DNA of 37,401 nucleotides, taken from Candidatus Iainarchaeum sp. (GTDB lineage Archaea; Iainarchaeota; Iainarchaeia; Iainarchaeales; DTGL01). A program made the translations under genes and the position numbers. Numbering within the stretch: position 1 is the stretch's first letter; each line of letters starts with the position of its first letter. The notes beneath the pieces are model-generated. The model was not told the origin of the DNA and searched no databases. It saw only the letters and a list, made by a program, of their open reading frames with translations. Positions 11,398 through 28,591 of this stretch are shown piece by piece. The stretch spans positions 1 through 37,401 of the forward strand of contig JAGGVE010000028.1 of assembly GCA_021163505.1 (NCBI GenBank), written 5' to 3'.

Positions 11398-11569
11398 TGG
11401 GGCTGCTGGGATTTGAACCCAGGTCGCCAGCTGTTTTGGTCATCAAGGACCTTGTGGCAGTACAAAAACACTCCACTACGAACATCACTAGGTTGCTGGA
11501 GGTGTCGGAACCCGCTGGAGGTTCTGACTCCCAAAGCTGGAATGCTAGGCCAGGCTACACCACAGCCCC
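11398..11569 (-). tRNA. tRNA-Pro (UGG) with a 97-nt intron
   Basis: Exon 1 is 11530-11569, the intron 11433-11529, exon 2 11398-11432. The acceptor stem is GGGGCTG/CAGCCCC, the T arm CTGGG-TTCAAAT-CCCAG, and the spliced anticodon arm CCAGC-TTTGGGA-GCTGG (anticodon UGG, proline). The intron is at the canonical 37/38 site. A textbook bulge-helix-bulge forms: UUUG pairs with CAAA between 3-nt bulges GGA and ACA, flanked by the anticodon stem and an inner helix GUCA/UGAC. CCA is not encoded. The intron carries a repeat shared, in opposite orientation, with the tRNA-Trp intron. It sits upstream of the DNA ligase gene on the same strand. Confidence 0.95.
11491..11524 (-). repeat. shared intron repeat, copy in tRNA-Pro intron
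   Basis: This 34-nt segment matches 18897-18931 at 31 positions, differing only in a short central spacer (three versus four bases). Here the repeat is on the minus strand, the sense strand of the tRNA. In tRNA-Trp the same repeat is on the plus strand, antisense to that tRNA. It contains the stem GAACC / GGGTTC and two CCTCCAGC boxes. Confidence 0.9.
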
Positions 11570-11580
11570 ATTACAAAGAG

Positions 11581-11692
11581 TGGGCCCGACGGGATTCGAA
11601 CCCGCGACACCCAGGTTAAGAGCTTCACCCCGAAATCCCCAACTAACGTCAGAGAAATCGGTCTGGTGCTCTGCCTGCTGAGCTACGGGCCC
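11581..11692 (-). tRNA. tRNA-Lys (CUU) with a 39-nt intron at position 30/31
   Basis: Exon 1 is 11663-11692, the intron 11624-11662, exon 2 11581-11623. The acceptor stem is GGGCCCG/CGGGCCC, the D arm GCTC-AGCAGGCA-GAGC, the T arm GCGGG-TTCGAAT-CCCGT. The spliced anticodon arm CCAGG-CTCTTAA-CCTGG gives anticodon CUU (lysine). The intron interrupts the 5' strand of the anticodon stem between positions 30 and 31, not the usual 37/38. The precursor still makes a full bulge-helix-bulge: CACC/GGUG helix, 3-nt bulges AGA and AAG, inner helix CCGA/UCGG and outer helix GAG/CUC. Mature length 73 nt. Confidence 0.95.
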
Positions 11693-13230: not shown

Positions 13231-13254
13231 AGAAAAAAATATAAAGGTTCAATA
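13231..13254 (+). promoter_or_regulatory. leaderless promoter sharing the TATAAA-TTCAA core
   Basis: A box A (AAATATAAAG, centre about 13241) lies about 28 bp before ATG 13270. The purine-rich AGAAAA preceding it and the TTCAA following it match the promoter-proximal arm of the palindromic elements at 20853, 21631 and 28521, though here no distal arm is present. This suggests a common promoter type. Confidence 0.55.
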
Positions 13255-13269
13255 TCTTTCTGTAAATAG

Positions 13270-13836
13270 ATGCACATAGAAAATCGTTTAGAACTGCTCA
13301 AAAATATGAGAATTATACTAAAACTATTTAGTGATAATAAGGAAATGGAGCTGAGAATAAAAGCAAATGAATTGATGAAAGAGGCCGTGCAAGAGAATAG
13401 CAGGCTTATTGCCCAGCAAAGCATCATCGCTTATGTCCTACATAAGATACTCACAAAAGAACATATTATAAAAGCAAGGACGTGGTCGAAAAACAAACGT
13501 GAAATAATAACGGTTCTTAAAAAACTTGTTCTTTATTTGGAGCACGATGATGCAAAAAAATTTGGGAAAACACTTGTGTCGTTACATAACAGAATAGAAC
13601 GCATAGACACCCGCTTTGGCAGGTTTGTTCAAAGCCTAATTGACAAAGCTCGGGTGAAGTATGCAAGCGATGCATACTTTTTAGGTGCATCATTGGGTCA
13701 GGCTGCAGCTCTTACTGGAGCGGATAAAAAAACACTGCTTGAATACATAGGCGCAACAAAACTGCATGATAAGGAAGAAAGAGGGAAGGGAATTGCTGAA
13801 AGGCTTGAAGCACTTAAGAAAGCATTGGGTGTATAG
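13270..13836 (+). CDS. helical protein paired with a PIN nuclease, unknown function
   Basis: 188 residues, largely alpha-helical and rich in Lys, Arg and Glu; I recognise no family. The first 130 residues look like a helical bundle, ending IDTRFGRFVQSLIDKAR. The last 55 contain LGQAAALTGADKKTLLEYIG and a basic helix (RLEALKKALGV). It has no signal peptide or membrane span. The gene is separated by two bases from the PIN-domain gene downstream, and both share one leaderless promoter. Such tight pairing suggests it controls or scaffolds the nuclease, as an antitoxin or as a processing partner; that is inference. Confidence 0.75.
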   Translation: MHIENRLELLKNMRIILKLFSDNKEMELRIKANELMKEAVQENSRLIAQQSIIAYVLHKILTKEHIIKARTWSKNKREIITVLKKLVLYLEHDDAKKFGKTLVSLHNRIERIDTRFGRFVQSLIDKARVKYASDAYFLGASLGQAAALTGADKKTLLEYIGATKLHDKEERGKGIAERLEALKKALGV

Positions 13837-17028: not shown

Positions 17029-18474
17029 CTAATATGCTCTGGCAAAGTAGCTTTTGCGCTTTGCTGGTTTGCCGCAAAAGAAGCATTTAGCATCTGCCTC
17101 CTTCTGATCCAAAGGAATAACCCTGTTAGTTGCTGCACTCTGCTTCTTAATCGCTTTTTCGCACTTAGGGGTCTCACAGAAGTAGCCATAAGCCATTTTG
17201 CCTGCCTTTATCGCTTTTAAGAATTCCTCCCTATTGTTTACTTCAACAGTGTTTTCCTGCAAAAACTTCTTTGCTTTTTCGAAGAGCGCTTTTTGAATAG
17301 TTTCCAAAGTTTCTTTCACTTTACCTTCGATCTCGCTCAAAGGAACAACTATCTTTTCATTGTTATCGCGTCTTACAAGTACTGCTTGCTTCTTCTGCAA
17401 ATCTTTTGGACCAAGTTCTATCCTCAGCGGGATTCCATAAAGCTCCCATTCATTAAATTTCCAGCCAGGTGTATACTGCTCGCGGTCATCAACTATAGGG
17501 CTGAATTCAGCCAATCTTTTTGCAAGTTCTCTGCACTTTTCAAGCACTTTTTTCTTTGAATCAGCAAAGTATATAGGCACTATAACCAACTTATTTTCAG
17601 CAATTTTTGGTGGAATTATTGCACCTTTATCATCACCATGCACTAAAACCATCGCACCAATTAGCCTTGTACTTATCCCCCAGCTGGTTTGCCAAACATA
17701 CTTTTTCTTCCCATTCGCATCTAAAAACTTTATTCCGAATGCTTTCGCAAAGTTTTGTCCAAGAAAATGTGATGTGCCCATCTGCAATGCTCTGCCACTA
17801 GGCATTAGCGCTTCCATTGTGAAAGTATACTCCGCGCCTGGAAACTTTTCAAGCTCTGTTTTCTTGCCTGCTACAACAGGTATTGCTAAGTAGTTTTCTA
17901 TCAGATCAATATACTCCTTTAAAATTGTGAGTGCCTCTTTCTCTGCTTCCTCACGAGTAGCGTGAGCGGTATGTCCTTCTTGCCAGAGAAATTCGCGTGT
18001 TCTTAAAAAAGGTTTTGGATGCTTGAATTCCCAGCGCACTACGCTACACCACTGATTCAGAAGCAATGGCAGGTCTCTATGCGAGCGAATCCACTTAGCG
18101 TAGCTTTCATAGAAAATAGTTTCGCTTGTTGGCCTTACCGCTAACCTTTCCTCGAGCTTTTTAGCACCTGCTCTTTCAACCCAAGCTACTTCTGGTTCAA
18201 AGCCTTCAACATGCTCTTTTTCCTTATCAAAAAGATGCTCCGGGATAAAAAGCGGGAAGTAAACATTTTTGTGCCCCAAACGCTTTATCTTTTTATTGAA
18301 TATTTCCTGAATTTTTTCCCATATTGCATAAGCGTTGGGCCTAATAACCATACAACCGCTAACGCTTGTATAGTCAGCAAACTTTGCTTTCTGTATTACT
18401 TGCGAATACCATTCACTAATATTTTCTTCTTTCTTAACTGTAATTCCAAGCTGCTTCTTTGCATCTTCTACCAT
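17029..18474 (-). CDS. proS: prolyl-tRNA synthetase, archaeal type
   Basis: Charges tRNA-Pro; both tRNA-Pro genes in this window are its substrates. With ATG 18474 it has 481 residues. Class II features are clear: VAWVERAG, VRPTSETIFYESYAKWIRSH, the motif 2 region RWEFKHPKPFLRTREFLWQEGHTAH and the proline-site region PGAEYTFTMEALMPSGRALQMGTSH. The C-terminal zinc domain has C-x4-C and C-x2-C and ends in Tyr, as in archaeal/eukaryotic ProRS. A GTG at 18483 would add three residues, but a GGTG motif overlapping it lies six bases before ATG 18474, so the ATG is preferred. Confidence 0.96.
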   Translation of the reverse strand: MVEDAKKQLGITVKKEENISEWYSQVIQKAKFADYTSVSGCMVIRPNAYAIWEKIQEIFNKKIKRLGHKNVYFPLFIPEHLFDKEKEHVEGFEPEVAWVERAGAKKLEERLAVRPTSETIFYESYAKWIRSHRDLPLLLNQWCSVVRWEFKHPKPFLRTREFLWQEGHTAHATREEAEKEALTILKEYIDLIENYLAIPVVAGKKTELEKFPGAEYTFTMEALMPSGRALQMGTSHFLGQNFAKAFGIKFLDANGKKKYVWQTSWGISTRLIGAMVLVHGDDKGAIIPPKIAENKLVIVPIYFADSKKKVLEKCRELAKRLAEFSPIVDDREQYTPGWKFNEWELYGIPLRIELGPKDLQKKQAVLVRRDNNEKIVVPLSEIEGKVKETLETIQKALFEKAKKFLQENTVEVNNREEFLKAIKAGKMAYGYFCETPKCEKAIKKQSAATNRVIPLDQKEADAKCFFCGKPAKRKSYFARAY

Positions 18475-18500
18475 TGTGCGCACCTAAACCAAAAATCTGT

Positions 18501-19130: not shown

Positions 19131-20777
19131 TTAATTGTTTTCGCTAAGCGCAAGGTGCTTTATTATAACCACTGAGCTGCTAGCGCTTACGCTATCTAAA
19201 AGCACTTTCTGCTCGCCTTTCAAAACAAATACATTGTAGTCTGCTTGCTCGAGAATTGTCACATAGTATTTATTGCAATCAACTGAAACGCTAGCAGAAC
19301 TATTTTCAAAAACAAGCTTGCTTTGCACGAAGCCTTTATCGTTATAGCAGGTTCCAGCAATGATCGCTTTGTTCACATCTTCGCTGTTCAATGGCTCCAA
19401 AATAAAATCGTTATCCTTTGCAAGAATATCGCTAGCATCCTTTATCAAAAACTTCGGCATGTAGCCATTCTTATACAAATACAATGCAAGCTCTTGCTGA
19501 GCATTTTCATCGATAATTGGAATATTATAGTAGGGCTCGCCTAAAAGTTCAAATCGAACAATTTTTTCGAAATCAAAGAGCTCAGCAACCGTGCCAGTAT
19601 TATCGCCAGTATCCTTCAGCAACGCTTTCCCTCGAGCTATGCCAAGCTGCTTTGCATCGAACTCAGCAAGCTTTTCTTTTGCTTGCTCATTATATTGCGT
19701 ATTAGAATCTGCAAGCACTTGCAAATGATATCTTGCTGCAAAGTAATCTCTGGCATCGGCAAGCTTGTTTGCAAGCTGCTCTTCAAACAGCGCCAAATAA
19801 AAGTTTGCTGCTTCAAACCTGACGCGAGCCTCATTTTCTTTCTCATTAAGCATCCTGTAATCATCTATTATAACCTCGAGTATATTTTTGTAAAGCTGTT
19901 TTTGTTCAGCGTTGAGGTCTTTTTCCTGCAGATCCTGTTTTGCCGAAAGAGCGAAGTAGAGAGAATCCCTGAACTTCTCGAAGGTATTCCAATAGCGTGC
20001 TCTTTCATACTTCTCTTCAGCGCTTAGCGCTGACGAGCTAAAAACACAATCCATCGGTGGCTCAGTGTAATTATATTTTATATCTATAAGCTCACTCTCG
20101 ATTTTTCTCACATAATTACCTACTTTTTCGATCTGCACATACTTTGCTATGCGATCGTTTACATAATCAAAGAAAAGTACGCCATTAACATCTTTGTAAC
20201 CGTATTTGCTTGCTCTCTTGCCTGAAAAAGAAATTCTTAACGCAGGGAACTCTCCTGCCAGCGTTTTTACTGTTGTTGCTTCTTCAAGCTTATAATCTAT
20301 GCCTTCAAATTTCCAAGTGTCGCCTATGCGCAGAGCTCTCTGCGGCATATAAAAGTTTGTTACAGAATATGTACCATAATCAACGCGCCCATCTCTAAAC
20401 AGATTTACAACTGACTGCTTCTTACTGTATCCAAGCTCTTTGCATAAATCACTAACGCCGTTCTTATCCAGCTTTATTGCCTTTATCATAACCATCTCTA
20501 TTTTTGTATAATCAGGAGTTATTTCAAGCGGCAAAGTAACAGTCTCAAATATCTGCGTGGGATAAGCATTATTATCAACTGTGGCTTCAATCCTAACGCG
20601 GTGGAACAATGCAACATTTTTATCAAAAGCGTATTTTGCGTAAAATACACCCTGCTCTGGCGTAGCAGTTGGCGTTGGTGTTTCAGTTTGTGCAGGCTCT
20701 TGCTGCTGTACACAGCCGAGAATTGCAATAAAAACCATACAAAGAGCTAAACATAGCAGAATTTTGGTAGAACGCAT
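19131..20777 (-). CDS. predicted lipoprotein with helical-repeat region, unknown function
   Basis: 548 residues from ATG 20777. The N-terminus is a lipoprotein signal (MRSTKILLCLALCMVFIAILGC, lipobox Cys near 22) followed by a Thr/Pro/Gln linker. A beta-rich domain (about 45-240, with GDTWKFEGIDYKLE) is followed by a helical region (about 255-400) that could be TPR-like, then a C-terminal mixed domain. Acts outside the cell, lipid-anchored. A GTG at 20786 would add three residues, but GGGGTG lies just before ATG 20777. It has its own upstream region containing the best-preserved 72-bp palindromic element. No family recognised. Confidence 0.8.
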   Translation of the reverse strand: MRSTKILLCLALCMVFIAILGCVQQQEPAQTETPTPTATPEQGVFYAKYAFDKNVALFHRVRIEATVDNNAYPTQIFETVTLPLEITPDYTKIEMVMIKAIKLDKNGVSDLCKELGYSKKQSVVNLFRDGRVDYGTYSVTNFYMPQRALRIGDTWKFEGIDYKLEEATTVKTLAGEFPALRISFSGKRASKYGYKDVNGVLFFDYVNDRIAKYVQIEKVGNYVRKIESELIDIKYNYTEPPMDCVFSSSALSAEEKYERARYWNTFEKFRDSLYFALSAKQDLQEKDLNAEQKQLYKNILEVIIDDYRMLNEKENEARVRFEAANFYLALFEEQLANKLADARDYFAARYHLQVLADSNTQYNEQAKEKLAEFDAKQLGIARGKALLKDTGDNTGTVAELFDFEKIVRFELLGEPYYNIPIIDENAQQELALYLYKNGYMPKFLIKDASDILAKDNDFILEPLNSEDVNKAIIAGTCYNDKGFVQSKLVFENSSASVSVDCNKYYVTILEQADYNVFVLKGEQKVLLDSVSASSSVVIIKHLALSENN

Positions 20778-20852
20778 CAAAAACACCCCTAAATAAGATA
20801 TAATAAAAGAATTAGCAAGCTTAATCTTTTAAAAGAATTCCAAAACGTTCGC

Positions 20853-20924
20853 AAGGAGGTTGAATGTTTATATTTCTTTCTACGTTTTTTCCTGAAGAAA
20901 AGAAAGATAGCATTCAACCTCCTT
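20853..20924. repeat. 72-bp palindromic element, copy 1 (perfect 14-bp TIRs, 6-bp flanking repeat)
   Basis: The ends AAGGAGGTTGAATG (20853-20866) and CATTCAACCTCCTT (20911-20924) are perfect 14-bp inverted repeats, and the interior is also partly self-complementary. GTTCGC flanks both sides exactly (20847-20852 and 20925-20930), as a target-site duplication would. Related sequences lie at 21631 and 28521. It sits between the trmJ stop and the lipoprotein gene. Confidence 0.85.
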
Positions 20925-20929
20925 GTTCG

Positions 20930-21619
20930 CTATTTTAACCTTTTAGAAAGCTCGCTTAGAACAGCAATAATTGCGTTTGCTTCGCGCTTTGTTACTGGCG
21001 CTCTTGAAACAAGGTGCCTAAAAGACGCTATCGTTGCCCTTTTATTCCTTATCACAGTAAGCTTGTTTGCAAGCTCTGCAAAGAGCTTAATCATTATGTG
21101 CTTAGTGTTGCTATCGGCAACAATTAAACGCGACCTCTGTGTACAAACAAAAAGCTCATAAAGGATTATTGCAACAGCATGCGAAACATTAAGGGTGCGA
21201 TAATTTCTGCTGGAGGGAATATTCACTATGAAATCGCAGAGCTCTGCCTCTTTATTGGTTAAACCACTTGATTCGCGCCCAAAGACAATACCAAGCTTAG
21301 CTTTTGTGCCTTTGAAATTTTCGGCAAGCTGCTTTGGTGTTATTGCATTTCTGATTATTTTTTTGTCTTTTGAAGCAATGGCAGTTGTTGCTGCACTAAA
21401 ATCAACATTGGCCAAAGCGTTTTCAAGCGAGCTAAAGAGTTTTGCACTCTCAAGCAAATCGCGAGCATGCATCGCTCTGCTTATTGCTCTCTCGCTTCGA
21501 AAATCCGCCTTTGGTTTTACAAGCCATAAATCCGAAAAACCAAAATTCTTAATAACACGAGCTATTAAACCGATGTTTTCCTCATATTCAGGCTCAACCA
21601 AGACTACAATGGCTCGCAT
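20930..21619 (-). CDS. trmJ: TrmJ-family tRNA 2'-O-methyltransferase (SPOUT)
   Basis: TrmJ methylates the 2'-OH of position 32 in the tRNA anticodon loop. The 229 residues have the SPOUT knot signatures: VEPEYEENIGLIARVIKNFGF at the N-terminus, GIVFGRESSGLTNKE (motif 2) and IPSSRNYRTLNVSHAVAIILYEL (motif 3), then the TrmJ helical extension. The open frame continues 16 codons upstream, but MRAIVVLVEPEYEE is the standard start, and a TATAAATA box A 27 bp before ATG 21619 indicates a leaderless mRNA. It is monocistronic or leads into the lipoprotein gene after a 150-bp gap. Confidence 0.93.
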   Translation of the reverse strand: MRAIVVLVEPEYEENIGLIARVIKNFGFSDLWLVKPKADFRSERAISRAMHARDLLESAKLFSSLENALANVDFSAATTAIASKDKKIIRNAITPKQLAENFKGTKAKLGIVFGRESSGLTNKEAELCDFIVNIPSSRNYRTLNVSHAVAIILYELFVCTQRSRLIVADSNTKHIMIKLFAELANKLTVIRNKRATIASFRHLVSRAPVTKREANAIIAVLSELSKRLK

Positions 21620-21630
21620 TAAGAGAGAAT

Positions 21631-21696
21631 AAGGTTGTTGAATATTTATATCCCTTTCTGTTTCCACTGAAGGAAAGAAAGCATGCTCAGCAAACC
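21631..21696. repeat. palindromic element, copy 2 (trmJ promoter region, degenerate right arm)
   Basis: Similar to copy 1 along most of its length: AAGG..GTTGAAT, TTTATAT, CTTTCT, CTGAAG and AAAGAAAG occur in the same order and spacing. The left arm is AAGGTTGTTGAATA; the right arm (CTCAGCAAACC) is decayed. AGAATAA occurs on both flanks (21626-21632 and 21698-21704), possibly a duplication. On the minus strand the left arm supplies the trmJ box A about 27 bp before its ATG. Confidence 0.7.
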
Positions 21697-21742
21697 AAGA
21701 ATAACCATAATAATTTTAATATATGGAGTGTTATTTTATTAG

Positions 21743-23101
21743 ATGCTTTCACGCACAAATCTTGCTTTAAACAGGGGAAAAACAGCTAAGCGATTACTTT
21801 TTGTATTAATTATTCTGCTACTTCTCGCCACTATGGAAAATGTGCTTGCCATAGAATATGACCCCATTCAGTTTCTAACAAAACAAACATATATGCTAAG
21901 AGAGAATGAAACCGTCAAGAAATTTATTGTAATAAGCTATGAGAGCAAGCCTTATTATGTGGTGCAGATAAGTGCCAATGATGTGGTTGTTGGCTACATA
22001 GCGCTTGAAAAATTTAACAAGAAGGTCGTGGAGGAAAAGGTGAAATCCAAGGTTCTATTTCAAACTGCTGAATTTATAAGCAACTACACAGATTTCAAAA
22101 AGGAGGTGAATAGTAATCCAAGCTATATATGGTTTATTCTGAAGTACAATGACATTCCAACAATAAAACAGAAGCTTGAAAACGAAAAGCTTGAGCTAAG
22201 CTTAATAGCGCAAACCGTTAGCAGCTACGAGGGGGTTTCAAAAGCAAATGCGCTGAGTTCAATGCTTGATGTCATTATTTCAGAGCTTGATGAGTTGCAC
22301 AGCAAAATGCTTGATGCTGTCTCCTTTGAATCTCAATTTTTAAAGGAACCTATTGCGGGCAAAGAGATTCAGCTTAAAGAAAAGCTCATTGACTCCTATG
22401 AAAGTCTTGAGAGGATATTTAGAGACAAGCAAGAATATGAATCGTTGCTTTTGCAACTCAAGATAGATATTGCAAACGACCCGGAATTGGATAGAGATAC
22501 GAAAAAGCAGTTGAATGAAACTGCTGATTTGCCGGATGAGGCAAAGGAGATAGATAAATGGTACACAAGCGCCACAAATATGCAATTTAAAGAGAATCTT
22601 GAAAGCATCTATTTGGATGCCTCAGATAAATCAACAAGCTATGCAGCACATGTGGCCTTAAGATTGAAAAGAGACTCCTGTTACAGATTTATATATGAAG
22701 AAAATACCGAGCTTGAAAAGAAAACAAACAATGAGCTAATGACGCTTAAAGAAGCCTACACTCTTATAATGGACGAAAAGAACTATGATAAATGGAAAAA
22801 CCGTTTAGCGTTAAAAGACCTAAAAACCAACTGGGCAAAAATGCTATCAAACTTAGAAAAGGAGGATTACGACACTGCGCTCAAGTATGCAAAAAAGGCC
22901 TTAAACAACGCAATAGATGTTTATAAAGAGGGCTTTTTTGTTGACAACGGCAAGACAGAAATAAACTATGAGCTGATATTCCAGGCAGCTATTGCAATTA
23001 TAGTTATTTTGATGGTAATATATGCCATAAGGAGCCGAAAGAAGCTTGTTTCATTAATAAGTGGTGAGAAAGATGAAAAAGTTGTGTTCAATGAGCTTTA
23101 A
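21743..23101 (+). CDS. membrane-anchored surface protein, unknown function
   Basis: 452 residues, no family recognised. A signal or anchor segment (about 18-36, LLFVLIILLLLATMENVLA) leads to a small beta-rich domain (about 37-100). A long, charged, alpha-helical region (about 110-400) follows, probably coiled coil, then a membrane span (about 413-430) and a short cytoplasmic tail. TATA-like ATTTTAATATAT lies about 30 bp upstream. The next gene starts inside its last codons, so the two are coupled and their products probably work together at the cell surface. Confidence 0.8.
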   Translation: MLSRTNLALNRGKTAKRLLFVLIILLLLATMENVLAIEYDPIQFLTKQTYMLRENETVKKFIVISYESKPYYVVQISANDVVVGYIALEKFNKKVVEEKVKSKVLFQTAEFISNYTDFKKEVNSNPSYIWFILKYNDIPTIKQKLENEKLELSLIAQTVSSYEGVSKANALSSMLDVIISELDELHSKMLDAVSFESQFLKEPIAGKEIQLKEKLIDSYESLERIFRDKQEYESLLLQLKIDIANDPELDRDTKKQLNETADLPDEAKEIDKWYTSATNMQFKENLESIYLDASDKSTSYAAHVALRLKRDSCYRFIYEENTELEKKTNNELMTLKEAYTLIMDEKNYDKWKNRLALKDLKTNWAKMLSNLEKEDYDTALKYAKKALNNAIDVYKEGFFVDNGKTEINYELIFQAAIAIIVILMVIYAIRSRKKLVSLISGEKDEKVVFNEL

Positions 23102-23924
23102 AAGCTTGGCTTTTGTGTTGTGCTTGCTTTTACTTGGGCTCAGCGTAAATGCCTATTTAACAGCAGAGATTGTTCCAAAAAATACTAATGCAAAGGTATT
23201 GGAACTCTATCCAGATGAAATAGGTGAATACGAAATAAAGGTAACAAACACATCCGCGGAAACAATTGAGCTTGTGAATATAAAGGTTGATGTTAGTGAC
23301 TCTTTGGCATTAATAAGGGGGCTTGAAACCAGGGGTTATGAAACAGAGGCCTTAAGGGCCATTCTCCCAAACGAAGAAAGAAGCATGAGTATTATTATAA
23401 AGCCGCTTAACAAGCTCAGAAAAAAAGAGGAAAAAAATCTAATAACGGTTTACTACGGAACCGATAGATACACACATTTCACAGGCACGTATGTGGAGGT
23501 TATAGAAAGCCCTCTTGAAGTAAAGGCATATCTAAAGAAACCCACTATGAACAAAGGCGAGGAAAATTACGTTGAGGTAGAAATAAAGAATAAATCTGGT
23601 GAACAGATAAAGGGTGTTGAAATTTCACTGTTAACGCCAACCAATTTCGATGTGAAAGAAAAGGACTATAATATAGTGTACCTAAATCCAGGCGATTCTT
23701 TTAAGAAGAGCTTCTATTTTAGTCCAGCCCCGACAGTTGTTGGAACACAATATGTTGCTTTGAGGATTGAATTTGAGGATGCTCGCGGCAAGCATATATT
23801 GGAAAAGAATTTTACAGTGGAGATTCAGGATAAAGCAATTGGCGCATCAATACTTTTAGCAATAATAATCGCATTGATTCTAGTCTATCTAATGACAAAA
23901 AAACAAAAAAAGGCTCAGCAGTAA
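23073..23924 (+). CDS. secreted/anchored protein with CARDB-like domains
   Basis: 283 residues from ATG 23073. A GTG at 23061 opens the frame earlier, but GGTGAG (23063-23068) is the Shine-Dalgarno motif for ATG 23073. A signal peptide (about 1-26) precedes two beta-sandwich domains with the look of CARDB/NPCBM-associated folds (YEIKVTNTSAETIELVNIKV; NYVEVEIKNKSGEQIKGVEI). One C-terminal membrane span and a lysine tail (TKKQKKAQQ) end it. Such domains scaffold surface proteins. It overlaps the 452-residue gene by 29 bases in another frame and the convergent GTPase gene by 10. Confidence 0.85.
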   Translation: MKKLCSMSFKSLAFVLCLLLLGLSVNAYLTAEIVPKNTNAKVLELYPDEIGEYEIKVTNTSAETIELVNIKVDVSDSLALIRGLETRGYETEALRAILPNEERSMSIIIKPLNKLRKKEEKNLITVYYGTDRYTHFTGTYVEVIESPLEVKAYLKKPTMNKGEENYVEVEIKNKSGEQIKGVEISLLTPTNFDVKEKDYNIVYLNPGDSFKKSFYFSPAPTVVGTQYVALRIEFEDARGKHILEKNFTVEIQDKAIGASILLAIIIALILVYLMTKKQKKAQQ

Positions 23925-25054
23925 AGCTCAACAATATCGCGATTTTGGACAACATACTCTTTAGCCACTTTTTGGCCTGGGAACTTTGTGCTCCCCCATA
24001 CGCGAGCGTATTTTAAGCCCTTATAAAAGTCCCGGTGAAGAGCTTTAGCAACATCTTCTATTGTTGAGCCTGCAGGCAAAGCCATTGGTTTTTCAGCTGG
24101 TTTCCCGCCAGGCTTCTTGGTAAAAATGAGCACCACATTAAGCAGTTTGAATAGAGCCTCTTTAAGCTTCTTCTTTTCTTCTTCATCAAGCTTTTTAATA
24201 ACAATTGCTTTCATCTTTTTACTTATCTCTTCAGGAATGTTGGCGTTACCAAACTTATCAACGATTATCGCTAAAGCCTTTTTATACACAAGCCGTTTAT
24301 TGAGTGCCCTATCAATCTTCTTATAGTCAGCAGGCTCTGAGATTATAACACTAATGTTATGCAAACCCTGTTTTTTAAGGTAGTTTTCCAAATCTTTTTT
24401 TGGCATCTGCAGGTATCTCTCGCCTACAATCGCCAAGCCCTGAAACTCTGATTTCTTTATCACAATCTTTGGTTTGCGCTCATTTAGCAATATATCTGCT
24501 TTTATTAGCTCTTTCATAAGTACATTGAATTCGTAGAGCGCATTGTTTGCATCTAACACCAAAGCAACAGCATCAGCGTTTCTTATTAAACCCAAAAGTT
24601 CTGTGCCGCGAGCCTTCCCTTGGCTGCTTCCCTCAATAAGTGCTGGAATTTCTACAAGCTGGATCTGAGCTTTGTTATATTCCATCATCCCTATTGCTGG
24701 TTCCTTCGTTGTGAAGGGATAGCTTGCAACCTCCACATCGGCATTGGTTAATGCTTTAAGCAAGGTACTCTTCCCAGAGTTTGGCATTCCTACAAGAACT
24801 ATCTGCCCAATGCCTTCTTTTCTTATACCAAGCGCCCTGCCGGTTGCTTTCTTTCTTTGCTCCTCTTGCTTCTCAATTTTCTCTCTGAGTGCACGAATCT
24901 TCCTGCTTATCTCTGCTCTTAAATTTTCTGCACCTTTATGGTCTGGCGCATACCTCTGCATCTCGAGCAAAGCGGCAAGCTTCTCTTCCAAGGTCTTAGC
25001 GTCTTCATACTTCTTTTGCGCCAAAGCAAATTCAATAGAAACATTAGTAGGCAT
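23915..25054 (-). CDS. DRG/OBG-type GTPase with TGS domain
   Basis: 379 residues: an N-terminal helical region (about 1-80), a G domain with P loop GMPNSGKST (near 89-97), switch I YPFTTKEPAIG, and a C-terminal TGS domain (last about 75, ending VVQNRDIVELYC). This is the layout of archaeal DRG proteins, which associate with ribosomes. The G3 motif reads VEIPALIEG instead of the usual DLPG(I/L)IEG, and the usual (N/T)KxD G4 motif is not obvious (VIKKSE). So nucleotide hydrolysis or specificity may differ. It converges on the surface-protein pair with a 10-base overlap. Confidence 0.9.
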   Translation of the reverse strand: MPTNVSIEFALAQKKYEDAKTLEEKLAALLEMQRYAPDHKGAENLRAEISRKIRALREKIEKQEEQRKKATGRALGIRKEGIGQIVLVGMPNSGKSTLLKALTNADVEVASYPFTTKEPAIGMMEYNKAQIQLVEIPALIEGSSQGKARGTELLGLIRNADAVALVLDANNALYEFNVLMKELIKADILLNERKPKIVIKKSEFQGLAIVGERYLQMPKKDLENYLKKQGLHNISVIISEPADYKKIDRALNKRLVYKKALAIIVDKFGNANIPEEISKKMKAIVIKKLDEEEKKKLKEALFKLLNVVLIFTKKPGGKPAEKPMALPAGSTIEDVAKALHRDFYKGLKYARVWGSTKFPGQKVAKEYVVQNRDIVELYC

Positions 25055-25102
25055 ATAGAACTGCTTATAAAAAAGTGTTAAAAAGAATTTGAATTTTGAA
25101 TA

Positions 25103-25870
25103 CTACCTTGGCCTTCTATGACGCCTTGAACGAGCTCGCTGCCACGCATCAACAAGCCTATTTAAAGTCCTTTTTGGCAGTTCACCGGTTGAGCTTGTAC
25201 TAATTTGTGTTCCATTCGCAAGCATTCTTTTTGTTAACCTAGCTTCTGCGCGCAAAGATTCTCTTAGCACATCTTTTGCATCTGCTGGACGAAAGGGCAG
25301 CCCCATAGCAACCGCCTTTAAAAGAGCGTGATCACCCTTAAAAAATCCAGCCATTTGAATCAATTCTTTTTGACCTAAGCGCGTAATGTGCTGCAAAGGC
25401 ATTAGCTCCCAAGGAATCTTCAACTTTTGTGTAGAGCGAACCCTTTTTGGAAGTGACCTAATAAGCTCAGCTAGCCTGTCCAATGGATGAACATTATTAA
25501 CAATTCTCCTGCAATCAATAACCTCAATACCCTTAATCTCTGGCAGTTCAACCTTGGCGCTGTGGAATTGATAATAATGGAAATTTGTCACTATAAGCTG
25601 TGCAGACGGGTTTATTTTATTAACGACACGGAGAAAATCAAAGGGAGGAATATCAGGAGGTTTGCCCTTTACAATTTGACCCACTGTAATGTCGCAAATC
25701 ACTGCATCATAAGATTTGTTGCGAACAAGCTCAATCGCATCAGAGCTTCTACTGCAAACGTCTATCGCTAACCTGCCAGAAAACTCTTTTTTAAGTCTTT
25801 GCTTAAACCTTTCAAAACCCAGAGGAGTAACACCAACAAAAAGAACTCTGATTTCTTTTCTTCGCTTCAC
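25103..25870 (-). CDS. receiver-like domain protein, unknown function
   Basis: 255 residues starting at GTG 25870, with GAGGT eight bases upstream. The first 125 residues resemble a CheY-like alpha/beta fold: RVLFVGVTP, then DAVICDITVG with an Asp where a receiver phosphosite would be, then QLIVTNFHYY. The second half is helical and basic, ending ARSRRHRRPR. No histidine kinase is visible, and the receiver assignment rests on pattern only. The basic tail could bind nucleic acid. Upstream lies the ureohydrolase gene on the same strand, about 115 bp away. Confidence 0.65.
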   Translation of the reverse strand: MKRRKEIRVLFVGVTPLGFERFKQRLKKEFSGRLAIDVCSRSSDAIELVRNKSYDAVICDITVGQIVKGKPPDIPPFDFLRVVNKINPSAQLIVTNFHYYQFHSAKVELPEIKGIEVIDCRRIVNNVHPLDRLAELIRSLPKRVRSTQKLKIPWELMPLQHITRLGQKELIQMAGFFKGDHALLKAVAMGLPFRPADAKDVLRESLRAEARLTKRMLANGTQISTSSTGELPKRTLNRLVDAWQRARSRRHRRPR

Positions 25871-25986
25871 GATAATACCTCACACAAATAAAACACACCA
25901 ATAAAAGAAATGCATAACTCAAATAAAAATTTGCTTCCTGGCATAAATTCCCAATTAGCAAACTACTTAGCTACTAACTACTTTGC

Positions 25987-26832
25987 CTATTTTAGGCTTG
26001 CTAATATTTCTGCTAAAAGCTTTGCTGCTAAGGCAGTTGTTAAATCGTTTTTATCTCGTTTAGGATTAACCTCAACAATATCAAGGCCAATCAATTTTAG
26101 TTTTGCAAGCTTTTTTGCAAGAGAACATAGCTGCAAAGGAGTCAGGCCAAAAGCAACAGGGTCCGAGACGCCGGGAGCAAGCGCCGGGTCTATAACATCG
26201 ATATCGATGCTTAAATAAACATTCTTGCAAACGCGCTCCTTTATCATGGAAAAAACTTTTGCAACACTAAGTTCTTCCAATTTGCTTGCTGGCACTAAAA
26301 GAAGTCTATTTTTCTTTGCGCTTTTTAGTTCTTCTTCGCGAAAAGCCCTGAAGCCTATGCAAGCGCTTTTACTGAGCTTCAACTGTTTTAACTTTGAAGC
26401 ATCACTGAGCACAGAACCATAAAAGCTTCCTTCGCTAGCAACCATATCAAGATGGGCATCAAAGTACACAATAGAGAATCTTTTATGAGCGCTTGCTAAA
26501 CCTTTGAGCGCATTGAGCGTGCAACTATGGTCACCGCCAAGCATCACTGGCAACTTATGCAAACCAACGATTCTGGCAACAAATTCAGTTACTTCATCCT
26601 TAAACACATTACCAATATCATACAACTTTTTCTTTATGGGTCCGCTCTCCGGATGCAAAACAAAGCGCTTTCCGGTTAATGTTGAACCAGAATAATATTT
26701 CAGCGAAGCGGCTCTTATCGCTTGCGGAGCCTTTTCAGAGCCAGCATAGAGGGATTCTTCGCTACTTGCAACACCAAACAGAACAGCTTCAGCATCATTC
26801 AGCGAACTGCAATTCTGCCAAGCGATTTTCAT
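25987..26832 (-). CDS. speB: agmatinase/arginase-family ureohydrolase
   Basis: Manganese ureohydrolases split agmatine, arginine or related guanidines to urea. The 281 residues contain all metal motifs: LGGDHS (His near 102), FDAHLDM (D125, H127, D129) and SIDIDVIDPALAPGVSDP. Archaeal members are most often agmatinases for polyamine synthesis, but arginase activity cannot be excluded from sequence. Its ATG overlaps the stop of the NTPase gene upstream (26829-26832, ATGA), so the two form an operon. Confidence 0.92.
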   Translation of the reverse strand: MKIAWQNCSSLNDAEAVLFGVASSEESLYAGSEKAPQAIRAASLKYYSGSTLTGKRFVLHPESGPIKKKLYDIGNVFKDEVTEFVARIVGLHKLPVMLGGDHSCTLNALKGLASAHKRFSIVYFDAHLDMVASEGSFYGSVLSDASKLKQLKLSKSACIGFRAFREEELKSAKKNRLLLVPASKLEELSVAKVFSMIKERVCKNVYLSIDIDVIDPALAPGVSDPVAFGLTPLQLCSLAKKLAKLKLIGLDIVEVNPKRDKNDLTTALAAKLLAEILASLK

Positions 26833-27383
26833 CTTTTCATCTCGGAAAAATTATTGGGCTCTGTTTCATAATACTTTGGATTTATAAATTTGGCTAAAGC
26901 GAGCAACACAGCCTGCTCAAATACTTTGCTACGAACTACCAAACAATTGGTTAGTATTCCAACAGCGCCCTGTTTCTTTTTCGTATCGTTTTCCCCAATA
27001 AGTTCGTCCATAACTGGACCTAATTCTCTGCCTTTACGTATCTCTTTAGCTACCTTTTCAGGCAATTCAATCTTTGATGTGCAGGCCAAGCCGAGCTTTC
27101 CGTTTTTATCAACGACTGCCACCCAGCCGCACAAAAACATGCCGTGCTTGGTTTCAACAACCGTGCCTTCAAGCCCAAAGCCAAAATCCGCATCTAACTT
27201 TTCCAAAGCACTCTTTGCTCTATTTATTGCTCCGCGAATCGCTTCTTCATCACCTTTGGGCTGGTAGCTAACACCTGATTTAGCATAAATACCTTGCACC
27301 TTCGCATTATGCCAAAGCTTTTGGATGGCGGAGCGCACAGCTTCGATTTTCACAGGATTTGTGGTACCAACAGCGATAAGCAT
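26829..27383 (-). CDS. non-canonical purine NTPase, YjjX/DUF84 family
   Basis: Members hydrolyse inosine and xanthosine triphosphates, removing damaged nucleotides. The 184 residues start MLIAVGTTNPVKIEAV, the family N-terminus. They continue with GVSYQPKGDEEAIRGAINRA, DFGFGLEGTVVE and a GPVMDEL and KKKQGAVGILT region, all diagnostic. A TTG at 27392 would add three residues; ATG 27383 matches the usual start. It is the first gene of a pair with the ureohydrolase (4-base overlap). Confidence 0.9.
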   Translation of the reverse strand: MLIAVGTTNPVKIEAVRSAIQKLWHNAKVQGIYAKSGVSYQPKGDEEAIRGAINRAKSALEKLDADFGFGLEGTVVETKHGMFLCGWVAVVDKNGKLGLACTSKIELPEKVAKEIRKGRELGPVMDELIGENDTKKKQGAVGILTNCLVVRSKVFEQAVLLALAKFINPKYYETEPNNFSEMKR

Positions 27384-27434
27384 ATTAGGCAAAAAACTGC
27401 AAAAAATATAAAACCTTTTTTAAGTGCTGAATGC

Positions 27435-28511
27435 TTAAGAATAGTGCATGATTAGAGAATTTCCTTTGCAGTAGCGCATCTCAGTGCAAGCATTACTAAA
27501 ACCGCTAAGCTCAAATACACTCGGCATTAAATCGTAAGCAGTACCATCTATAAGAAAAATATTTTCATCGCTAACAAAAATAAAAGGAATTTGCTTAGCG
27601 AAAACTGTTTCGCTATACGGCTTGCTTGCATGATGGCCGTTGCATTGTAAGCAATCAAAAGCCATTCCATGATCTGCGGTAATGAAGAAAAGGACATTTG
27701 AATCTGCAAGCTTCTTGACCAGCGGTTTTAAGTAACTGTCCAAGCCCTCAATACAGTTTATATATTCTGAAGCTGAGAGATTGTGAGCGCATTTATCAGT
27801 GCCTTTGGCGTTTGAGAAAAGGAAAAATTCCTTTTCAGGAAAACGCCCTTGCAGGAACTTTATGAGCTTATAATCAGTATCAATTATAAACGCTGAGTAT
27901 AGAACAAAGAAATTAACATCGCGCTCTTGAAGCTTATAATTTGCAGCATTCTTGGCTTGCTCCCTGAGGAAGCTTGCAACCTCTTTTGCTTCTTCGCTGC
28001 TGCTGTTGAGCTGCACTCTAAAATCAAACAAGTCATTATCATAGAGCACAACATCAAACTCGTTACGAGCTTCTTTGAAATCGCCTGCTTCGCTAACCAT
28101 TATGCATAAATAACCCTTGCTTCTATAAAAATCGCAGACGCTTGCAATGCCAAAATCATCAACGCATTCCTTTATAGAATCCCATTGCCTGCCACAATCG
28201 CCAGCTATATAATAGAGACTATGCGCTGCTGTAGTTTTTGTAAATGGTTGCTCCAAAACAGCACTTTTGCTGTAAAAGCGCTCTATACTTTTCAATCTTG
28301 CTTTTTTTAGAAAAACACCATCAAGCATTATTTGGTGCTCACTTAAATTTTCCAAATAGCTTGCTCCAACACCGTCAAGCACTAAAATAAAAACACTTTT
28401 AGGTTCTTCTGATACGGGTTTCTGTAAAAATAGGCTGGTAAAAAATAATAAAAGCAAAGCGAGTGAAAGCAACGCTCCAAATAAAAGAAATTTATTGTTT
28501 TTAAGGCGCAT
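27435..28511 (-). CDS. membrane-anchored alkaline-phosphatase-superfamily hydrolase
   Basis: 358 residues from ATG 28511 (MRLKNNKF). An N-terminal membrane anchor (about 7-26) precedes a catalytic domain with metal motifs in order: FILVLDGVGASYLE, a TKTTAAHS stretch that may hold the nucleophile, FFITADHGMAFD and GHHASKPYSE. This is the sulfatase / phosphodiesterase / phosphoglycerate mutase superfamily; substrate cannot be told. The CLQCNGHH pair of cysteines is unusual. The open frame extends eight codons further, but that is within a palindromic element whose box A lies 27 bp before ATG 28511, so a leaderless start is preferred. Catalytic domain predicted extracellular. Confidence 0.85.
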   Translation of the reverse strand: MRLKNNKFLLFGALLSLALLLLFFTSLFLQKPVSEEPKSVFILVLDGVGASYLENLSEHQIMLDGVFLKKARLKSIERFYSKSAVLEQPFTKTTAAHSLYYIAGDCGRQWDSIKECVDDFGIASVCDFYRSKGYLCIMVSEAGDFKEARNEFDVVLYDNDLFDFRVQLNSSSEEAKEVASFLREQAKNAANYKLQERDVNFFVLYSAFIIDTDYKLIKFLQGRFPEKEFFLFSNAKGTDKCAHNLSASEYINCIEGLDSYLKPLVKKLADSNVLFFITADHGMAFDCLQCNGHHASKPYSETVFAKQIPFIFVSDENIFLIDGTAYDLMPSVFELSGFSNACTEMRYCKGNSLIMHYS

Positions 28512-28520
28512 ATTTAAAAA

Positions 28521-28591
28521 AAGGCTATTGAACATTTTAAATTCTTTCTAAATCCCCCTAAAAGAAGAAATAATGGCTATTCAACAACCTT
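28521..28591. repeat. palindromic element, copy 3 (promoter of the phosphatase-family gene)
   Basis: A 71-bp element with ends AAGGCTATTGAAC and TATTCAACAACCTT, TTCTTTCT in the left half and AGAAGAAA in the right half, in the same layout as copies 1 and 2. The left arm gives a TTTTAAAT box A 27 bp before ATG 28511, the same spacing as in copy 2. Flanking TTTAAA repeats are too AT-rich to count as target duplications. Confidence 0.7.

Follow-up and report, generated by a model that had tools for sequence, protein, structure and literature searches.

Short inverted-repeat elements carrying an archaeal promoter in Candidatus Iainarchaeum sp. resemble mobile MITEs and probably replace host promoters

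The nearest functional precedent for the elements described here is the Correia element (CREE) of Neisseria, which the consulted passages of a review (PMC10969869) describe as short and non-autonomous, with terminal inverted repeats, a location upstream of genes and a promoter of its own. The same sections report that several bacterial MITEs carry sigma-70-like promoters, and that archaeal MITEs occur in Sulfolobus (SM1-SM4), Halobacterium and Haloquadratum, with families of 25-44 copies in Sulfolobus solfataricus (PMC10969869). For the archaeal elements, these parts of the review describe neither an archaeal promoter nor the replacement of a host promoter. Within our limited coverage of the open-access literature, we found no report of an archaeal mobile element or palindrome with a TATA box, or of a MITE with an archaeal promoter. 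Short intergenic palindromes of the REP, ERIC and RUP type are also found in many genomes.

The window analyzed here is a stretch of 37,401 nucleotides of Candidatus Iainarchaeum sp. (contig JAGGVE010000028.1), in which several copies of a short palindrome lie upstream of genes. Like Correia elements, as the review presents them, these are short, non-autonomous inverted-repeat elements with a promoter. The likeness is one of function in another domain of life, and we do not claim membership in that family: Correia promoters are of the bacterial sigma-70 type, whereas the element described here has an archaeal BRE/TATA box beside or overlapping one terminal repeat, occurs in about 12-20 copies and is flanked by target duplications of ~4-7 bp. 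With the archaeal MITEs covered in that source, it shares the character of a non-autonomous inverted-repeat element in archaea. It differs from REP/ERIC/RUP-type repeats in its target-site duplications, its fixed internal promoter and its mostly sense orientation. We consider it very probable that the palindromes are MITE-like non-autonomous transposable elements with a complete archaeal basal promoter, which displace the old TATA box of a gene and would take over its transcription.

The initial annotation reported three palindromes, all of which are present, on the minus strand and upstream of minus-strand genes. Its bounds were exact for copy 1, while those of copy 2 and, approximately, copy 3 are better placed as given below. 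It also located a box A about 27 bp before the ATG in two copies, which agrees with the TATA box centers measured at trmJ and the phosphodiesterase-family (phosphatase-like) gene, in the promoter-proximal arm. Aligned on the minus strand, the three copies share AAGG..GTTGAAT, a pyrimidine-rich stretch, AGAAAG, a TATA box and ATTCAA...CCTT. A fourth copy in the window is a half copy. The features are as follows.

20853..20924, minus strand: full element (copy 1), upstream of a lipoprotein-like gene (19131-20786), E 1.1e-13; inverted arms AAGGAGGTTGAATG/CATTCAACCTCCTT, 14 bp, perfect
20847..20852: target-site duplication of copy 1, GTTCGC (GCGAAC on the minus strand)
20925..20930: second copy of this duplication, GTTCGC, abutting the trmJ stop codon
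20867..20873, minus strand: TATA box of copy 1, ATATAAA on the minus strand, as read from the sequence
20876-20881: BRE-like AGAAAG of copy 1, upstream of the TATA box
21633..21697, minus strand: element copy 2, upstream of trmJ (20930-21619), E 0.019; promoter half intact, distal arm decayed
21626..21632: target-site duplication of copy 2, AGAATAA (TTATTCT on the minus strand)
21698..21704: second copy of this duplication, AGAATAA
21645..21651, minus strand: TATA box of copy 2, centered 28.5 nt before the trmJ ATG
28519..28589, minus strand: element copy 3, upstream of a metalloenzyme/phosphodiesterase-family gene (27435-28511), E 3.3e-9
28513..28518: probable target-site duplication of copy 3, TTTAAA
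28590..28595: second copy of this probable duplication, TTTAAA
28536..28542, minus strand: TATA box of copy 3, centered 27.5 nt before the ATG
13231..13259, plus strand: half copy, promoter half only (AGAAAAAAATATAAAGGTTCAATATCTTT), upstream of the ORF at 13270-13836

Elsewhere in the window, a 5S rRNA gene lies at the contig end (16-132, minus strand), and Rfam places two tRNA genes of 172 and 112 nt at 11398-11692 (minus strand) that were missed by ARAGORN and probably contain introns. A prolyl-tRNA synthetase at 17029-18483 (minus strand) has DPANN-type archaea, Bathyarchaeota and Firmicutes together among its best relatives, which suggests horizontal transfer.

We searched the genome of the window (G000, 958,664 bases) and those of its relatives, of which G003 is the nearest species, G001, G002 and G004 belong to the same genus and G006 to another. 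Allowing three mismatches at most, the pattern AGAAAGNNWTWWAAANNTTCAAYNNCCTT matched G000 at 16 places, and its reversed control matched nowhere. A covariance model of the G000 and G003 copies found 11 copies at E < 1e-4 in G000, along with more degenerate ones; its matches reached E 1e-13/1e-14 in G000 and G003, and three sites were found in G006. Given these counts and E values, the three window palindromes are not a product of chance, and the genome-wide profile scan proposed with the initial annotation did recover further copies. As is typical of MITEs, the element is short (65-75 bp), non-coding and multicopy. Its ends, AAAGGTTGTTGAATA/TATTCAACAACCTTT, form terminal inverted repeats of ~15 bp, and the consensus of ten aligned copies reads AAAGGTTGTTGAATACTATTTTTCTTTTCTTT..GGAAA..ATATAGAAAGAAATATAAATATTCAACAACCTTT. 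Over these ten copies, 93.5% of the cells in the 14-bp outer helix are paired, as terminal inverted repeats of a MITE would be. The arms covary, with 10 doubly changed cells compared to 3.3 in shuffles; the lipoprotein copy, for instance, reads GGAGG/CCTCC, and other copies read GGTTG/CAACC at this position. No Rfam model matches the element.

Direct duplications of ~4-7 bp, mostly AT-rich, flank many of the copies. They include GCGAAC (lipoprotein), TTATTCT (trmJ), TTAGAAA (G003:C42), TTTTTAA (G003:C65), TTATA (galT) and TCAAA (G006:C76), among others, and are clearest at the lipoprotein, trmJ and G003:C42 copies. Several are ambiguous in that they lie in A/T runs, and six of the 16 sites have no duplication or one of only 3 bp. 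Nevertheless, the summed flank match over the 16 sites was 61, compared to 30 expected when flanks were re-paired among them (p about 5e-5), a signature expected of MITE insertion.

Orthologous regions, located in five relatives with one concatenated protein query, were then compared, and seven sites proved to lack the element in sister species, including one that is occupied in G000 only. At galT, the empty site in G004 reads GGATATTTAACTTTTTGTTTTTCTTATATGCACATG, while G000 and G003 have near-identical flanks plus 75 bp. The phosphatase and C16 sites are empty in G002, where they read GATTTGGCAAAGCATTTTAAATATGCAC and ATTAACTTTAACATAGCTCGC, respectively; that species also lacks the element at ABCE1, trmJ and tRNA-Thr. 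The copy at the 3' end of pelota (C28:8909) is absent from G003, and in G001, G002 and G004 only about 6-14 bp separate the ends of the genes flanking it, according to tblastn; this insertion is therefore specific to G000. It is the only one seen to be recent, since about eight sites are common to G000 and G003 by inheritance. Near the start of pelota, G003 (C51) also has an 89-bp deletion relative to G000, which could be an assembly error or a true loss.

An additional empty site comes from G006, where the C76 copy is nested in a different repeat with TCAAA duplicated, and six intact copies of that repeat show the uninterrupted sequence. This second palindromic family of G006 (L340-L345, L136) is ~95 bp long, reads ATATCAAAAGAC..GTCTTTTGATAGCTATCAAAGGAC..GTCCTTTGATAT in its six near-identical copies, contains a TATA-like AATTTATAC, occurs upstream of PTH2 and is absent from the genus of the window; the copy disrupted by the window-type element is upstream of an aminoacyl-tRNA synthetase-like gene. 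Collectively, the empty sites, target duplications and species-specific insertion support the suggestion of the initial annotation that the palindromes are promoter-carrying mobile elements.

The right, promoter-proximal half of the element consists of an archaeal promoter, with BRE-like AGAAAG followed by the TATA box ATATAAA. The start codon or tRNA gene follows the TATA center at about 28 nt, with a range of 22.5-31.5 nt in 11 of 12 copies measured. The exception is half copy C5 at 4.5 nt, whose box reads TATAAT and was skipped by the search expression, so that this figure is not that of its box. Judged by the sequence, such a distance is compatible with leaderless transcription in archaea, and a background of 108 genes from sampled stretches of the genome shows a TATA-like peak near -30. 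Six promoter-site insertions have a readable ancestral state (phosphatase, galT, C16, ABCE1, trmJ and tRNA-Thr). In all six, the element entered on the downstream side of the old TATA-like box, as assigned by eye, and in most of them this box is still legible ~75 bp further upstream. The TATA box of the element would replace the displaced one, and transcription of the target genes now appears to depend on the promoter of the element instead of their own. At the lipoprotein, C44 and G003:C42 sites, the element entered upstream of the old promoter, beside the stop codon of the preceding gene.

The genes downstream of the copies encode ABCE1, eIF5A, tRNA-Thr, tRNA-Ala, a galT-like protein, TrmJ, the lipoprotein and the phosphodiesterase-family protein, and have no common pathway; ABCE1, eIF5A, galT, pelota and ppdK were named by reading their sequences, without a family search. 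Most copies are immediately upstream of genes, including the three in the window, so the matches are not scattered without relation to gene starts. This placement, which the initial annotation described for its three copies, is not universal: C28:8909 is flanked by the convergent ends of pelota and a neighbor, and C33:23252 is directed toward the 3' end of ppdK, neither of them at a promoter. At seven of eight sites between co-directional genes, the element is in sense orientation, a bias that is most simply attributed to selection.

The near-fixed spacing of a dyad that overlaps a promoter in each copy, most often immediately upstream of a gene, is also what would be expected if a dimeric regulator bound both arms around each target promoter. 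We regard such an operator function, which the initial annotation had offered as the alternative, as highly improbable because the targets are heterogeneous, unrelated housekeeping genes. Two copies lie away from promoters, and the orthologous promoters in G001, G002 and G004 have no element, although operators should be conserved among them. A fixed binding site also does not explain arms that vary together in sequence, or clean insertions with target duplications. A fused terminator-promoter spacer, in which the T-rich, hairpin-forming distal half terminates the preceding transcript and the remaining half initiates the following one, would be conserved by its double function. The pyrimidine-rich distal half (TTTTTCTTTTCTTT) is consistent with this idea, as are the several copies that begin within 20 nt of the stop codon of a preceding gene in the same direction and the half copies, which are mostly at divergent genes, where a terminator is not needed. 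However, full copies are also found between divergent genes (ABCE1, phosphatase and tRNA-Ala), and the target duplications, empty sites and species-specific copy are left unexplained. As the sole explanation it therefore seems improbable, but a terminator function can be true in addition to mobility.

Another question concerns the half copies alone, which keep only AGAAAG-TATA-TTCAA..CTTT. One site has the full dyad in G003 and the promoter half only in G000, and at C42/C19 the G000 copy has lost internal sequence but kept both ends. If AGAAAG-ATATAAA-TTCAAYANCYTT were instead a strong native promoter of this lineage that was captured by the mobile element, half copies would not be relics. Sister species do use AGAAAG/AAATATAAA promoters at some of these genes (such as PTH2 in G002 and the orthologue of the 13270 ORF in G002 and G004), and we view this origin as possible but doubtful. 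The sequence that follows the TATA box, TTCAAYANCYTT, is the end of the element and is nearly confined to G000 and G003, with 1, 0 and 1 matches to the same pattern in G001, G002 and G004, respectively. Because this end sequence is nearly absent from those three species, the half copies are probably relics.

Under strict filters, which weak matches may escape, the model placed the family in three genomes, G000, G003 and G006, whether the 75 genomes of the order or the 87 of the class were searched. Presence in a sister genus and absence from three species of the same genus is a patchy distribution, as expected for a mobile element. Among the end-repeat matches inspected in G000, G003 and G006, which are incomplete drafts, there was no autonomous element with the same ends; these matches were known copies, relics and apparent chance matches in genes. 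The DDE transposases of G006, considered as partners within the DDE_Tnp_1 family only, have unrelated ends (TGTAGAAATCC). A DDE_Tnp_1 transposase fragment (95 aa ORF) at G000:C48:15523-15711 is the only one seen in G000 by that family. Scanning viral contigs for the dyad gave one match, which looks like chance inside a coding region.

Returning to the MITE-like element, we propose that a transposase acting in trans moves it. Insertion between the old TATA box of a gene and its start would push that box about 75 bp away, and in a sense-oriented copy the TATA box of the element would then be at the right distance to take over transcription. Later decay may remove the distal arm, leaving a bare promoter. 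A further, tentative idea is that the element favors the TATA-to-start interval where promoters are active, which may be the melted transcription bubble, with its own TATA box as "insurance" that lets insertions at essential genes survive, and that the host becomes dependent on its promoter. The position of insertions does not prove such targeting because intergenic regions are very short, and viable insertions may be confined to such positions.

If this interpretation is correct, these elements would represent transposon-driven promoter turnover in archaea, in which ABCE1 (a ribosome recycling factor), eIF5A and tRNAs have come under a TATA promoter borne by the element, and close sister species retain the ancestral promoter at those genes. 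An origin from the element would also explain the half copies, which on their own resemble a conserved regulatory motif. The seven pairs of empty and occupied sites would thus amount to natural before-and-after experiments on archaeal promoter architecture.
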